Source of the DNA: Thermoplasmata archaeon
Lineage (GTDB): Archaea; Thermoplasmatota; Thermoplasmata; Lutacidiplasmatales; UBA184
NCBI GenBank assembly: GCA_027315165.1
Contig: DAHUYN010000002.1
Location: forward strand, 1 to 64,000
Length of the DNA stretch: 64,000 bases
Direction of reading: 5' to 3'
The notes under the pieces are model-generated. The model was given only the letters and a program-made list of their open reading frames with translations, had not been told where the DNA came from and ran no database searches. The position numbers and the translations under genes were made by a program. Shown piece by piece: positions 6,880 through 11,808 of the stretch. The stretch's first letter is position 1; each line of letters starts with the position of its first letter.

Positions 6880-7242
6880 GTGGTGTTTGCATCCGGCTCG
6901 TATAGCTCGACCAGTGGCATCGACGCGTCAAGTGACATCTCTGCCGGCTGGGATGCGGTGAGCATCGGGACGTCTCTGTCGATTCAGTCCGATCTGGCGG
7001 AAGCCCAGCTTCTCGCGGACCCGATTCACCCGGGCGGCGGGACCGTCGTGACGTACTTCAACAACCGTCTCTGGAAGGCGAACCGTCCGTCCGTCTCGAC
7101 TTGTGGGGATCCGTCAGGTATCACGATGTCTGCGTTCGGCTCGGGATTCACGGTGGGATTCAATGCGACATGGGAGGGCACGAGCTACGTCGTGCCGTAC
7201 CACCTCCCATTCAGCCTCAACTTCACCTACCACTTCCGAGCC
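6880..7242 (+). pseudogene. Fragment of an exported surface protein
   Basis: An open frame of about 120 codons reads like the extracellular part of a surface protein (FNATWEGTSYVV, HLPFSLNFTYHF), with Gly/Ser/Thr-rich beta-strand composition and Asn-X-Thr sequons. It has no signal peptide of its own. Around 7240 the sense ends and transposase-derived sequence begins in another frame. I read it as an internal fragment left when an IS630-type element landed here. The parent family cannot be named. Confidence 0.5.
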
Positions 7243-8131
7243 CAACACCGGTGCCTTGTGGCGGCGGCGGTTCCTCGCCGCGCGCCTCCCGGGTTTGAGG
7301 AACGACGCCCCTCGAGCCGGCGGCCCCCTCCTCATCCCCGACACCAAGATCCGTGCCCTCGTCGACGACACGCTCTACCGCCAGCCGCCGAGCGCCACGC
7401 ACTGGTCGAGTCGCACGATGGCGGCCGTCCATGGGGTCAGTCCCTCGACGGTGCGGCGCATCGGGTCGGCCCGTCGCCTCGCGCCGCACCGCCTAGAGCC
7501 GTACAAACACAGCCGGGACCAGCACTTCGAGGAGAAGCGCCGGGACGTGGTGGGTCTCTACCTCAACCCGCCCGAGCCCACGCTGGTGCTGAGCGTGGAC
7601 GAGAAGACCCCGATCCAGGCGCTCGACCGGACCGAGTCGATCCTCCCCCTTCGGGAGGGGGTCCCCGAGCGCCTGACCCACGACGATCGGCGCACTGACG
7701 CCACGAACCTCTTCGCGGCCCTCGACGTGGCCGAGGGCACGCTCCTCGGCGAAGGCCACAAGCGGCCTCGGGCGAGAGAGTTCCTCTCCTTCCTGCGCAC
7801 CCTCGATCGAAGCACCCCTCCCGAGCTCGACCTCCACCTCATCCTCGACAACCTTGCCACGCACTGGACGGCGAAAGTGAAGCGGTGGGTGCTCCGGCAC
7901 CCCCGCATCCACTTTCACGTCGTCCCGACGAGCTCCTCTTGGCGGAACCAAGTGGAGCGAGGGTTCAACGACCTGACACAGAGGCGGATCCGCCGAGGGA
8001 CCTTCCCGAGTGAGCACGAGCTCATCGAGGCGCGGAAGCAGTACGTGGCCACCTGCCACGAGGACCCTCGATCGTTCCGGTGACGGGCCGTCGCCGACCG
8101 GATCCTCACCAAGGTCCGCTGGAACCGGTGA
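7243..8131 (+). mobile_element. Decayed IS630-family transposase
   Basis: The frame from about 7243 matches an IS630 transposase: the end of the helix-turn-helix region (WRRRFLAARLPGL), a linker, ATHWSSRTMAAVHGVSPSTV, then the DDE core. The first Asp is in SVDEKTPIQALDRTE, the second in LHLILDNLATH, and the Glu in WRNQVERGF. About 60-70 N-terminal residues with the first DNA-binding helices are missing. The frame is cut by TGA at 8081-8083, where relatives have Trp; in-frame sequence (AVADRILTKVRWNR) continues to a second TGA at 8129-8131. So the copy is truncated at both ends of the protein and probably inactive. No terminal inverted repeats could be identified. Confidence 0.8.
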
Positions 8132-8315: not shown

Positions 8316-11300
8316 GTGGACCGCTACGGCACGGCGATCGAGTCGTCCGTCGACCGTGCGTATGCGGCCGCGGAGCGTGCCCGCGCCGTCGGCCTCGACC
8401 CGGCGCTCTCGCCGGAGGTCCCGAGGGCCCAGGACATGGCGTCGCGCGTCGAGAAGCTCCTCGGCCATCTGCATCTCGACGGGATCTCGAGCGAGATCCG
8501 CACGCTCTCGGCGACGAAGCCCCGCGAGGAGGTCGCCGTCGAGATGGCCCGCCGCATCGCCCTCGACCCGTCACGGGGGGGTTCCCTCGAGGCTCGCCTG
8601 GACGCCGGCCTCCGGGTCGGGCTCGCCATCCTGACCGAGGGAATCCTCGTGGCCCCGCTCGAGGGGCTCGCGGAGGTGCACATCCGCTCGGACGGCCCGG
8701 GGGCGCCGGGGTATGTCGAGCTGTACTATGCCGGTCCGATCCGGGCCGCGGGCGGTACCGCCCAGGCGCTGTCGGTGCTGCTCGCCGACCTCGTGCGACG
8801 GGACCTCGGCCTCGGCGCCTACCACCCGGACGAGGCTGAGGTCGGTCGCTACAAGGAGGAGATCCCCTTGTACAAGCACCTCCAGCACCTCCAGTACGTC
8901 CCTTCCGCCGAGGAGATCGAGCTCGTGGCCCGACATGTGCCGGTCTGCATCTCGGGCGAGTCCACAGAGGGCGACGCGGAGGTGAGCGCGTTCCGCAATC
9001 TGCCCCGCGTCGGGACGAACGGCATCCGCGGCGGTGCCTGTCTGGTCATCGCCGAGGGACTCTGCCAGAAGGCGGCGAAGCTCCGGAAGGTCGTCGACAA
9101 GCTCGGCGTACCGGGCTGGGGGTTCCTCGAGAAGCTCGGCCGCAAGACCCCCGGGGACGCTGAGCTGAGCCACGCCCCGAAGTACCTCACCGAGGCGGTC
9201 GGCGGTCGGCCGATCCTGGCCTACCCGAACCGGCCGGGCGGCTTTCGTCTTGTCTACGGGCGCGCCAGGACCGGGGGGCTCGCCTCCTGCGGCCTGAACC
9301 CGGCGACGATGGTGGTCTTGCGAAGCTTCGTCGCCGTCGGGACGCAGGTGAAGCTCGAGTACCCGGGGAAGGCGACCGCGATGGCGCTCTGCGACAGCGT
9401 CGAGGGGCCGCTCGTCGAGCTCGACGACGGGAGCTTGCTCGCGGTCCACGACGTCGACCGCGCCCGGGCCCTGCTCCCTCGGATCCGCCGCATCGTCGAC
9501 CTCGGGGAGATCCTCGTCCCGTTCGGGGAGTTCCTCGAGAACAACCGCGCCCTCGTTCCGGGCGCCTACGCGATCGACTGGCACCTCGCCGAGCTCGACG
9601 CGCGAGGGGTTCCCGCGGGGTCGCGAGCTCCCGCTCCCTCCTACGAGGAGGCGGTCCGGCTCTCCGCGGAGTTTGCGGTGCCCCTGCACCCGCGCCACCT
9701 GCTCTTCTGGCACGACCTGGAGCCCGCCGAGGTCGCTGACCTCAGCCGGTTCGTCGAGCGCGAAGGCCGTCTCGACGGCCCGGCTCTGGTCCTCCCGTGG
9801 ACCGAGCCGGACCGTGAGCGCCTCGTCCGGCTCGGCTTCCTGCACGCTCCCCTGTCGGACGGACGACTTCGAGGCGACGCCGCGGCGTCGGCGGCGCTCT
9901 TGGGCGGACTCGGTCTCGCCCCCTCGAGCGACGGGGTCGTGCGCCGCGCGGCGCTCGAGCCGGTCGAGGGTCCGGTCCTCGCCTACGTGAGCCGGCTCGC
10001 GGGCGTTGAGGTGCGCGCGCGGGGCCCCTCTCGGATCGGGGCCCGCGTCGGGCGGCCGGAGAAGGCCCGGCTGCGCAAGATGAGCCCCAACGTGCACGGC
10101 CTGTTCCCGGTCGGCGACGCCGGAGGGGCCCAGCGGTCCGTGAGCCAGGCGGCCCGCGCGACGATGCGCGACGGCGTCCCCGTCCTCCTCGGCGTGCGCC
10201 GCTGCCCCGACTGCCACCGGTCGACGGTGTGGCTCCGGTGCGCGTGCGGCCGGCACACGGAGCCGACCGGCGAGGTCGCGACCCAGCCTCTCCCGGTCGC
10301 GCGGCTCTGGGCGGACGCGGTGAGCCATCTCCATCTGTCGAAGGCCCCCGAGATGAAGGGCGTCAAGGGACTCACCTCGCCGGGGAAGGTCCCCGAGACC
10401 CTCGAGAAGGGGATCCTGCGCGCAGCCCACGGGATCGCCGTCTACCAGGACGGGACGGCCCGGTTCGACCTGACCGACCTCCCGCTGACCCACTTCCGGC
10501 CCCGGGAGGTCGGCCTCAGCGTCGAGCGGGCCCACGCCCTCGGCTACGAGAGCGACTGGGCCGGCGCCCCGCTCGAACGCGAGGACCAGCTCCTCGAGCT
10601 CGAGCCGCAGGATATCATCGTCTCGCGCTCCTGCGGCGAGTACCTCGTCCAGCTCGCCCAGTTCGTCGACGACGAGCTCGTGAAGCTCTACGGGCTCGAG
10701 CCGTTCTACTCGGCGTCGCGTCCCGGGGACCTCGTCGGCGAGCTCGTCGTCGCGCTCGCGCCGCACACCTCGGGCGGCGTCGCGGGCCGGATCGTCGGGT
10801 TCACCGAGGCCGAGGCCTGCTTCGCCCATCCCGTCTTCCACGCCGCGAAGCGTCGGAACTGCGACGGCGACGAGGACTCGGTCACGCTCCTCGTCGACAC
10901 GCTGCTCAACTTCTCCCGCGCCTACCTTCCCGAGAGCCGCGGGGCGCTGATGGACAAGCCCCTCGTGCTGACGACCCGTCTCGACCCGACGGAGGTCGAC
11001 AAGGAGGCGCACAACCTCGACGTCGTCGACCGCTACCCGCTCGCCTTCTACCGTCTGGCCGAGGCCGGGCGCCCGGCGAAGGAGGCCGAGCCGCTCGTGA
11101 CGACGCTCGGTCGCCGGCTCACGCTCGCCGACCCGATGCGGGGGCTCGGGTTCACGCACGACACCTCCGACATCGCGGGAGGGCCCGTGCGCTCGACGTA
11201 CCGTGAGGCGGGCTCGATGGCCCGCGGGGTCGAGCTGTCGCTCGTGCTCACGTCGCAGATCCGGGCCGTCGACGTCGCCGACGCGGTCGCGCTCGTCCTC

Positions 11301-11663
11301 AACAGCCACTTCCTGCCGGACCTGATGGGGAACCTGAAGAGCTACGCGACCCAGCGCTTCCGTTGCAAGAGCTGCAACGCCTCGTACCGGCGGCCCCCGC
11401 TCGCCGGGCGGTGCTCGGCCCGGACGACGGGCGGCCGCGCCTGCGATGGCGAGCTCGTCCCGACGGTCTACGAGGGGGCGGTGCGCAAGTACCTCGGGCT
11501 CTCGCAGAAGCTCGCCGAGACCGCCGGGGTCACGCCGTACCTCCGCCAGCGGATCCGGCTGCTCGAGACCGCTCTCGAGACGATCTTCCCCGGCGGCGCG
11601 AGCCAGACGACGCTCGAGGGGTTCCCTGCCGAGGGATCCCCCGGCACGGCCGGCGCGGGCTAG
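8316..11663 (+). CDS. polC: DNA polymerase II (family D) large subunit DP2
   Basis: The 1115-residue catalytic subunit of the archaeal replicative D-family polymerase, which works with the DP1 exonuclease subunit (not in the window). The N-terminal domain begins at GTG 8316 (DRYGTAIESSVDRAY). A first zinc-binding site lies near residues 630-645 (CPDCHRSTVWLRCACG). The catalytic NCDGDED motif lies near 847-853. A C-terminal zinc region follows near 1017-1050 (FRCKSCNASYRRPP), then the segment that binds DP1. The length is normal and there is no intein, although inteins are frequent at this locus in other archaea. A tRNA gene follows closely. Confidence 0.97.
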   Translation: MDRYGTAIESSVDRAYAAAERARAVGLDPALSPEVPRAQDMASRVEKLLGHLHLDGISSEIRTLSATKPREEVAVEMARRIALDPSRGGSLEARLDAGLRVGLAILTEGILVAPLEGLAEVHIRSDGPGAPGYVELYYAGPIRAAGGTAQALSVLLADLVRRDLGLGAYHPDEAEVGRYKEEIPLYKHLQHLQYVPSAEEIELVARHVPVCISGESTEGDAEVSAFRNLPRVGTNGIRGGACLVIAEGLCQKAAKLRKVVDKLGVPGWGFLEKLGRKTPGDAELSHAPKYLTEAVGGRPILAYPNRPGGFRLVYGRARTGGLASCGLNPATMVVLRSFVAVGTQVKLEYPGKATAMALCDSVEGPLVELDDGSLLAVHDVDRARALLPRIRRIVDLGEILVPFGEFLENNRALVPGAYAIDWHLAELDARGVPAGSRAPAPSYEEAVRLSAEFAVPLHPRHLLFWHDLEPAEVADLSRFVEREGRLDGPALVLPWTEPDRERLVRLGFLHAPLSDGRLRGDAAASAALLGGLGLAPSSDGVVRRAALEPVEGPVLAYVSRLAGVEVRARGPSRIGARVGRPEKARLRKMSPNVHGLFPVGDAGGAQRSVSQAARATMRDGVPVLLGVRRCPDCHRSTVWLRCACGRHTEPTGEVATQPLPVARLWADAVSHLHLSKAPEMKGVKGLTSPGKVPETLEKGILRAAHGIAVYQDGTARFDLTDLPLTHFRPREVGLSVERAHALGYESDWAGAPLEREDQLLELEPQDIIVSRSCGEYLVQLAQFVDDELVKLYGLEPFYSASRPGDLVGELVVALAPHTSGGVAGRIVGFTEAEACFAHPVFHAAKRRNCDGDEDSVTLLVDTLLNFSRAYLPESRGALMDKPLVLTTRLDPTEVDKEAHNLDVVDRYPLAFYRLAEAGRPAKEAEPLVTTLGRRLTLADPMRGLGFTHDTSDIAGGPVRSTYREAGSMARGVELSLVLTSQIRAVDVADAVALVLNSHFLPDLMGNLKSYATQRFRCKSCNASYRRPPLAGRCSARTTGGRACDGELVPTVYEGAVRKYLGLSQKLAETAGVTPYLRQRIRLLETALETIFPGGASQTTLEGFPAEGSPGTAGAG

Positions 11664-11676
11664 GCCATCCCAACGG

Positions 11677-11685
11677 CCAAATACG
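11677..11685 (+). promoter_or_regulatory. TATA-like box of tRNA-Arg
   Basis: CCAAATACG, centred about 27 bases before the first tRNA base, is the expected distance for archaeal transcription of a leaderless tRNA. Confidence 0.45.
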
Positions 11686-11707: not shown

Positions 11708-11808
11708 GGGCTTGTGGGGTAGTTTGGACTATCCTTTTGGCCTTCGAAGCCAAAGACCTGGGTTCGAATCCGGCGGCGTCGCCGCCGGCGGAACTCCCAG
11801 CAAGCCCG
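11708..11808 (+). tRNA. tRNA-Arg (anticodon TCG) with a 26-base T-arm intron
   Basis: Acceptor strand GGGCTTG (11708-11714) pairs perfectly with CAAGCCC (11801-11807), followed by discriminator G. The D arm is GGGT/ATCC. The anticodon stem TTGGC (11737-11741) pairs with GCCAA (11749-11753) around loop CTTCGAA, giving anticodon TCG for Arg codon CGA. The T stem CTGGG (11758-11762) and loop TTCGAAT (11763-11769) are normal, but the partner strand CCCAG comes only at 11796-11800. The 26 bases between contain a perfect 8-bp hairpin (CCGGCGGC/GCCGCCGG, GTC loop). Removing them leaves a standard 75-base tRNA. Because CC and the preceding T repeat at both edges, the exact splice point is ambiguous by up to three bases (tRNA position 59/60 to 62/63). 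Confidence 0.85.

Follow-up and report, generated by a model that had tools for sequence, protein, structure and literature searches.

The window analysed here, a stretch of 64,000 nucleotides, comes from a soil archaeon within Thermoplasmata, in the Lutacidiplasma/UBA184 family. Behind a gene for the large subunit of DNA polymerase D (DP2) and a TATA-like element, it carries the gene of a tRNA-Arg(TCG), which reads CGA codons, with a T arm interrupted by a short insert; a transposase gene lies farther upstream (Table 1).

Table 1. Features of the tRNA-Arg(TCG) locus, with positions counted from the first base of the window
Feature	Positions	Strand	Basis and remarks
Transposase gene, DDE_3 and HTH_32 domains (IS630-like)	7103-8083	+	3.6 kb upstream of the tRNA
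DNA polymerase D large subunit DP2	8316-11663	+	Pfam PF24846, PF24844, PF03833; conserved upstream neighbour
TATA-like element CCAAATAC	11679-11683	+	About 28 bases upstream of the tRNA; present in most orthologous loci
5' exon of tRNA-Arg(TCG), positions 1-59	11708-11768	+	Sequence, Rfam model, fold
Anticodon TCG	11744-11746	+	7-base loop CTTCGAA closed by TTGGC/GCCAA
T stem 5' strand CTGGG (outer exon helix h)	11758-11762	+	Fold; partner 11796-11800
T-loop TTCG (54-57), exon strand of central 4-bp helix H	11763-11766	+	Partner 11789-11792
5' bulge A58 A59 ^ T	11767-11769	+	Predicted cut 11768/11769; fold
26-base intron TCCGGCGGCGTCGCCGCCGGCGGAAC, position 59/60	11769-11794	+	Fold; missing from four related loci
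Intron hairpin h' CCGGCGGC-GTC-GCCGCCGG	11770-11788	+	Fold; all 8 pairs covary
Helix H, intron strand CGGA	11789-11792	+	Fold, covariation
3' bulge A C ^ T60	11793-11795	+	Predicted cut 11794/11795; fold
3' exon, positions 60-73 (T, CCCAG, CAAGCCC, G73)	11795-11808	+	Sequence, fold

A sequence-only reading of the window had proposed a tRNA-Arg(TCG) with a 26-base T-arm intron at positions 11708-11808, and the sequence, a bulge-helix-bulge (BHB) fold, and the orthologous loci all bear it out. Removal of the 26 bases leaves a canonical tRNA with perfect arms, as that reading had stated: acceptor stem GGGCTTG/CAAGCCC (7 bp), anticodon stem TTGGC/GCCAA (5 bp), and T stem CTGGG/CCCAG (5 bp), with TTCGAAT as the T loop and G as the discriminator. 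With the insert in place, the Rfam tRNA model matches positions 11708-11781 at 29 bits, exactly its gathering score, since the tRNA is disrupted by the insert towards its 3' end, and ARAGORN did not detect the tRNA-Arg(TCG) in the window.

Folded at minimum energy, the T arm (11756-11808) forms a complete 3-4-3 hBHBh' motif in one consistent register, in which two 3-nt bulges separated by a 4-bp helix (H) lie at the exon-intron junctions. The earlier reading had envisaged a relaxed motif at these junctions; a BHB is indeed there, but it is strict. The 8-bp hairpin described within the insert agrees with the fold, and all of its pairs covary among orthologues. In a BHB each bulge is cut after its second base (NN^N), and this rule together with the two 3-nt bulges fixes the intron at 59/60. 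The register first given, 11770-11795, was offered as one of four, all of which do yield the same product; the BHB selects its neighbour. That the same intron is instead cut asymmetrically from a relaxed motif at 60/61, 61/62, or 62/63 is improbable. The repeated T and CC at the edges give one spliced product in all four registers, but only with 59/60 does each 3-base bulge have its cut after the second base. Moreover, among 90 introns of the family, any base (A, C, G, or T) may stand immediately before the 3' junction, and helix H is paired in 85% of cases at the 59/60 offset versus 70% at the neighbouring offset and 35-54% at most others.

The whole unmodified 101-base precursor does not take the cloverleaf as its minimum-energy fold (-55.2 versus -43.7 kcal/mol); this may reflect the folding method, as the same program likewise misfolds the spliced tRNA. 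A group I intron was considered and rejected, since the insert is 26 nt long and no Rfam ribozyme matches were found in the window.

Scanning named genomes with DP2, we located 80 loci, the nearest in Candidatus Lutacidiplasma silvani, UBA184, and other Thermoplasmata assemblies. The tRNA-Arg(TCG) behind DP2 could be read at 50 loci, the window included. An intron of 23-38 nt is present at 46 of the 50 readable loci, in exons that are nearly invariant, and 41 of these 46 have all four H pairs together with at least four of the first five hairpin pairs. At the other four loci (L076, L077, L085, and L094) the T arm is uninterrupted and has the form expected after splicing. Across 17 orthologous introns that have the same length, pairing extends to 95.5% of cells, and two-sided changes occur in all eight hairpin pairs; none of 500 shuffles paired as highly, and slid versions came nowhere near. 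The exon strand of helix H, TTCG, is paired in 100% of cells in alignment A1 of the orthologues. On the DP2 tree, the intronless L077 is nested beside the intron-bearing L084 and L088, with two as the fewest changes, which implies that the intron was lost cleanly there or gained more than once. A TATA-like CC(A/T)(A/T)ATA, with a CCAAATA form, recurs at a similar distance (about 28 bases upstream) in most orthologous loci. An assembly error or chimera, which the sequence-only reading had named as grounds for dismissal, is extremely unlikely: the genome is in 61 contigs and probably comes from a metagenome assembly, but the feature is common to 46 loci from many independent assemblies.

The same reading had supposed a T-arm intron to be uncommon in a Thermoplasmata-like genome, whereas in the Lutacidiplasma/UBA184 family such introns are the rule, at 7-15 per genome. 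From weak tRNA matches in the window's genome we read T-loop introns in Ser(CGA), Glu(CTC), Gly(TCC), Asn(GTT), Arg(TCT), and Ser(GCT), as well as in Ser(GGA), Asp(GTC), Gln(CTG), and Lys(TTT). Leu(TAG) and His(GTG) came to light with R1, a covariance model for split T arms that we used in the genome, family, and phylum searches. The genome thus has 13 tRNAs, Arg(TCG) among them, with a T-loop intron at the same site, versus 29 other recognised tRNA genes. The 11 training isotypes share one geometry, with 90.1% of cells paired and a covariation of 0.663 versus 0.202 in shuffled alignments. ARAGORN missed ten of the 13 and gave the other three wrong 3' ends, which suggests that tRNA counts for Thermoplasmatota may be too low where T-loop introns are not modelled.

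These data also bear on the possibility that the insert is never removed, being an extended T arm in a pseudogene or an unusual functional tRNA, which we consider very unlikely. The failure of ARAGORN at the Arg(TCG) gene would fit such a reading, but this is the sole Arg(TCG) found: a tRNA search of the genome (94% complete) returned no second gene, including the uninterrupted copy whose presence the first reading had left to be checked. Also against it are exons that stay nearly invariant while intron length varies, the uninterrupted T arm of four relatives, and the equal arrangement in 12 other tRNAs of the genome. We rejected a pseudogene on the absence of another Arg(TCG) in that search, the invariant exons, and the 12 similar tRNAs.

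Within the order, R1 matches all 61 genomes, and each of the 58 family genomes has 7-15 matches. For the three genomes from two sister families the counts are 2, 2, and 5, and laxer filters give 2 and 8 in two of them. Across the phylum, R1 has matches in 58 of the 243 genomes at E <= 0.01, and genomes outside the family have 1-7 apiece; 17 of 19 outside-family matches inspected could be parsed as a tRNA with a T-loop intron, and two were left unparsed by the script. When isotypes were compared among eight family genomes, Asp(GTC) carried a T-loop intron in all eight, Ala(GGC), Arg(TCG), Arg(TCT), Asn, Gln(CTG), His, Lys(TTT), Ser(GCT), and Ser(GGA) in seven, and Gly(TCC) in six, while Glu(CTC), Leu(TAG), and Ser(CGA) introns occurred in genera g1, g3, and g7 only. 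The recurrence of the same isotypes across genera indicates that the intron set is mostly older than the genera of the family.

The central helix is less uniform than the site. All four H pairs form in 38 of the 90 family introns, and 48 mispair at the fourth pair only. This pair is mismatched in 8 of the 13 introns of the window's genome, mostly as A57 opposite G; among A57-bearing introns (those of TTCAAA tRNAs), G stands opposite A57 in 43 of 53, which is not a Watson-Crick pair.

Several further observations were made on tRNA introns in these genomes. In the window's genome, inserts in the D arm occur, also or instead, in Lys(TTT) on C1, Leu(TAG) on C9, initiator Met on C1, and Arg(GCG) on C11 (L038, L132, L031, and L033); those of Lys and initiator Met fold in a BHB-like manner, the latter with TCAGG/CCTGA and 3-base bulges. 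In genome G003 of sister family f3 (L300-L304, L243), the T-loop introns of several tRNAs are AT-rich and just 13-14 bases long. In families f12 and f35 (L204, L216, L211, L218, and L222), T-loop introns of different isotypes have a TGCAACYTG core in common, as if one intron had spread among tRNA genes. Most orthologous introns differ strongly, but the 33-base Ser(CGA) intron is identical in G000 and G006 (L131 and L245), two genera, which suggests recent gene transfer.

The genome encodes RtcB along with a single gene for the splicing endonuclease EndA (C11:262.7-263.5 kb), about 340 aa long with two tandem PF01974 units. Two tandem units were found in 44 of 46 genomes of the order, the window's included; of the remaining two, one has a single unit, located on a short contig, and the other gave no match. 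Most intron-bearing genomes sampled elsewhere in the phylum have an EndA of like architecture. The protein aligns over its full length with the alpha'2 EndA of Archaeoglobus fulgidus, carries both units in one chain, and has the invariant catalytic residues Y275, H283, and K314 in the second unit, all of which place it in the alpha'2 class. In the catalytic unit, no insertion relative to the A. fulgidus enzyme was found in the interval from YG to the LSLLEA helix, which we take to be the site of the crenarchaeal loop. An AlphaFold model (pLDDT 83.8) has its best fold matches in 5x89 and then A. fulgidus EndA, and the TM-score is 0.41 to 4fz2 versus about 0.6 to A. fulgidus. Two other classes were considered and rejected: a crenarchaeal (alpha beta)2 EndA with its loop, given a single gene with tandem units and without the insertion, and an epsilon-2 (ARMAN) EndA, which has three units and about 390 aa and is also disfavoured by the lower TM-score to 4fz2. 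In addition, the N-terminal, non-catalytic unit of L042 and its relatives contains a conserved stretch of basic character, VLPRGG-LHKTP--(F/Y)W, which exceeds its A. fulgidus counterpart in length and might contact RNA as special loops do; a similar stretch is also found in sister families with few introns.

Previous studies describe alpha'2 enzymes as limited to canonical motifs, tie non-canonical introns to enzymes with an extra loop, either (alpha beta)2 or epsilon-2, and place euryarchaeal tRNA introns at 37/38 (PMC4090602, PMC6379350, PMC12397907). The Arg(TCG) intron does not contradict the rule for alpha'2 enzymes, because its motif is strict and only its position is unusual. About half of the T-loop introns of the family, those with a mispaired helix H, are in conflict with these stated limits.

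We regard it as very probable that the Arg(TCG) insert is a BHB intron at T-loop position 59/60, excised by the alpha'2 EndA, with the exons joined by RtcB. Splicing is predicted here from the sequence and the fold. In the precursor, as fold and covariation show, T-loop bases 54-57 pair with the closing segment of the intron, and the T stem outside together with the intron hairpin inside leaves two 3-base bulges 4 bp apart. EndA would cut both bulges at exactly the predicted sites, after the second base, and RtcB would ligate the exons into a normal 75-base tRNA. The TTCR and AA of the near-universal T loop would form the exon half of the motif, with the intron ending in GRAA-NN, so that one kind of intron could fit all tRNAs. 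Transcription of tRNA genes in archaea, unlike that in eukaryotes, does not rely on a promoter box in the T arm, and an intron in the T loop would thus not block it.

As to how these introns arose, a neutral spread that is compatible with splicing has, in our estimate, about an even chance of being right: a mobile or convertible intron with specificity for the universal T loop may have multiplied without benefit to the cell. The TTCRAA loop would offer a ready target in every tRNA, the Arg(CCT) and Lys(CTT) introns of the Thermoplasmatota family f12 have a common TGCAACYTGC core, and intron transposition in Thermoproteales is mentioned, with reference to Fujishima 2010, in a passage of PMC4033280. 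Conversely, introns of different isotypes in the Lutacidiplasma family have a median similarity of 0.438 within a genome versus 0.430 across genomes, which leaves recent transposition within the family unsupported, and the presence of the same intron-bearing isotypes in most genera means that any spread is old. Neutral spread also sits poorly with integrase-neighbour tRNAs that lack T-loop introns, as described below.

The introns might instead persist by breaking the 3' tRNA sequence that serves integrating elements as an attachment site. A proposal that tRNA disruptions hinder the integration of viruses and plasmids is credited to Randau and Soll where PMC3293823 cites them. We searched the regions around 68 non-XerA-like tyrosine recombinase matches of the family for tRNAs, and ARAGORN recognised 20 at 19 loci, with the integrase often about 90-500 bases away on the same strand. 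T-loop introns were found in none of these 20 integrase-neighbour tRNAs, which represent 11 distinct isotypes, some of them repeated in related genomes. R1 likewise found no interrupted T arm near the integrases, where its matches were weak and mostly intact T arms of 25 bases. Given a background of 13 in 42, the chance of 11 intron-free isotypes is 0.008, a nominal value that disregards kinship, relies on a single genome for the background, and stems from a test added late. The result is correlative and gives a lead for the hypothesis, which we put forward tentatively, that T-loop introns act as a barrier to integrating elements.

Integrase genes are situated close to tRNA-Lys(CTT), Thr, Gly(CCC), Arg(CCG/CCT), Trp, and Met, for example at G000:C61:16291-16728 (L337) and in relatives, and the adjacent regions are likely integrated elements with tRNA attachment sites. 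At the one site searched (C61:1-74999), a far att site in the form of a second tRNA-Lys(CTT) 3' end was not found. One of the 20 integrase neighbours, a tRNA-like sequence with an intact T arm (L396:1514-1591, reverse strand), is called Ser(GCT) by ARAGORN but is too short for a serine tRNA; perhaps it is element-borne or degenerate.

Non-canonical BHB introns are known from tRNAs of Thermoproteales and other Crenarchaeota, with 59/60 among the listed sites (Yoshihisa 2014, PMC4090602). The family resembles these archaea in its BHB motif, its T-loop site at 59/60, the many isotypes affected, and some genes with two introns (here Lys(TTT) and Leu(TAG)). It differs in its place within Thermoplasmatota, in the concentration of its non-canonical introns at one site, and in an EndA that is alpha'2 without the crenarchaeal loop rather than (alpha beta)2. 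Many non-canonical tRNA introns outside Thermoproteales are also found in the Asgard Atabeyarchaeia and Freyarchaeia, where 92-95% of tRNA genes have introns and over half of these have several (PMC11291895), whereas here about half of the tRNA genes have one intron and T-loop introns prevail. With the euryarchaeal alpha'2 systems (Archaeoglobus, Thermoplasma, and Haloferax) the family has its EndA architecture and, in Arg(TCG), a strict BHB in common, but theirs is described as one intron at 37/38 (PMC4090602), and here the T loop predominates as the site. ARMAN-2 is likewise a lineage with non-canonical introns, but its epsilon-2 EndA has three units and an ARMAN-specific loop (PMC12397907), where we see two units and no insertion.

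In the open literature we found no report of tRNA introns in Lutacidiplasmatales, and the word 'intron' is absent from the main text of the paper describing the order; tRNA databases such as GtRNAdb, or supplements, may list some without comment. T-loop introns are known in other archaea, and what seems undescribed is a family-wide set at one site alongside an alpha'2 EndA.

We hypothesize, as a possibility that is on balance doubtful, that in this family about a third of the tRNAs have the T loop as a permanent intron site, shielding their 3' ends from integrating elements, and that an alpha'2 EndA without the special loops processes the A57/G mispaired BHB. If true, this would run against the accepted view that intron variety goes with enzyme type. 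In the genomes examined, the family departs from the rule that contrasts extra-loop with alpha'2 enzymes, which makes the rule testable. More generally, as each genome has 7-15 T loops with an intron and about 30 without, the family offers a natural experiment on the proposal that introns protect tRNA genes from integration.
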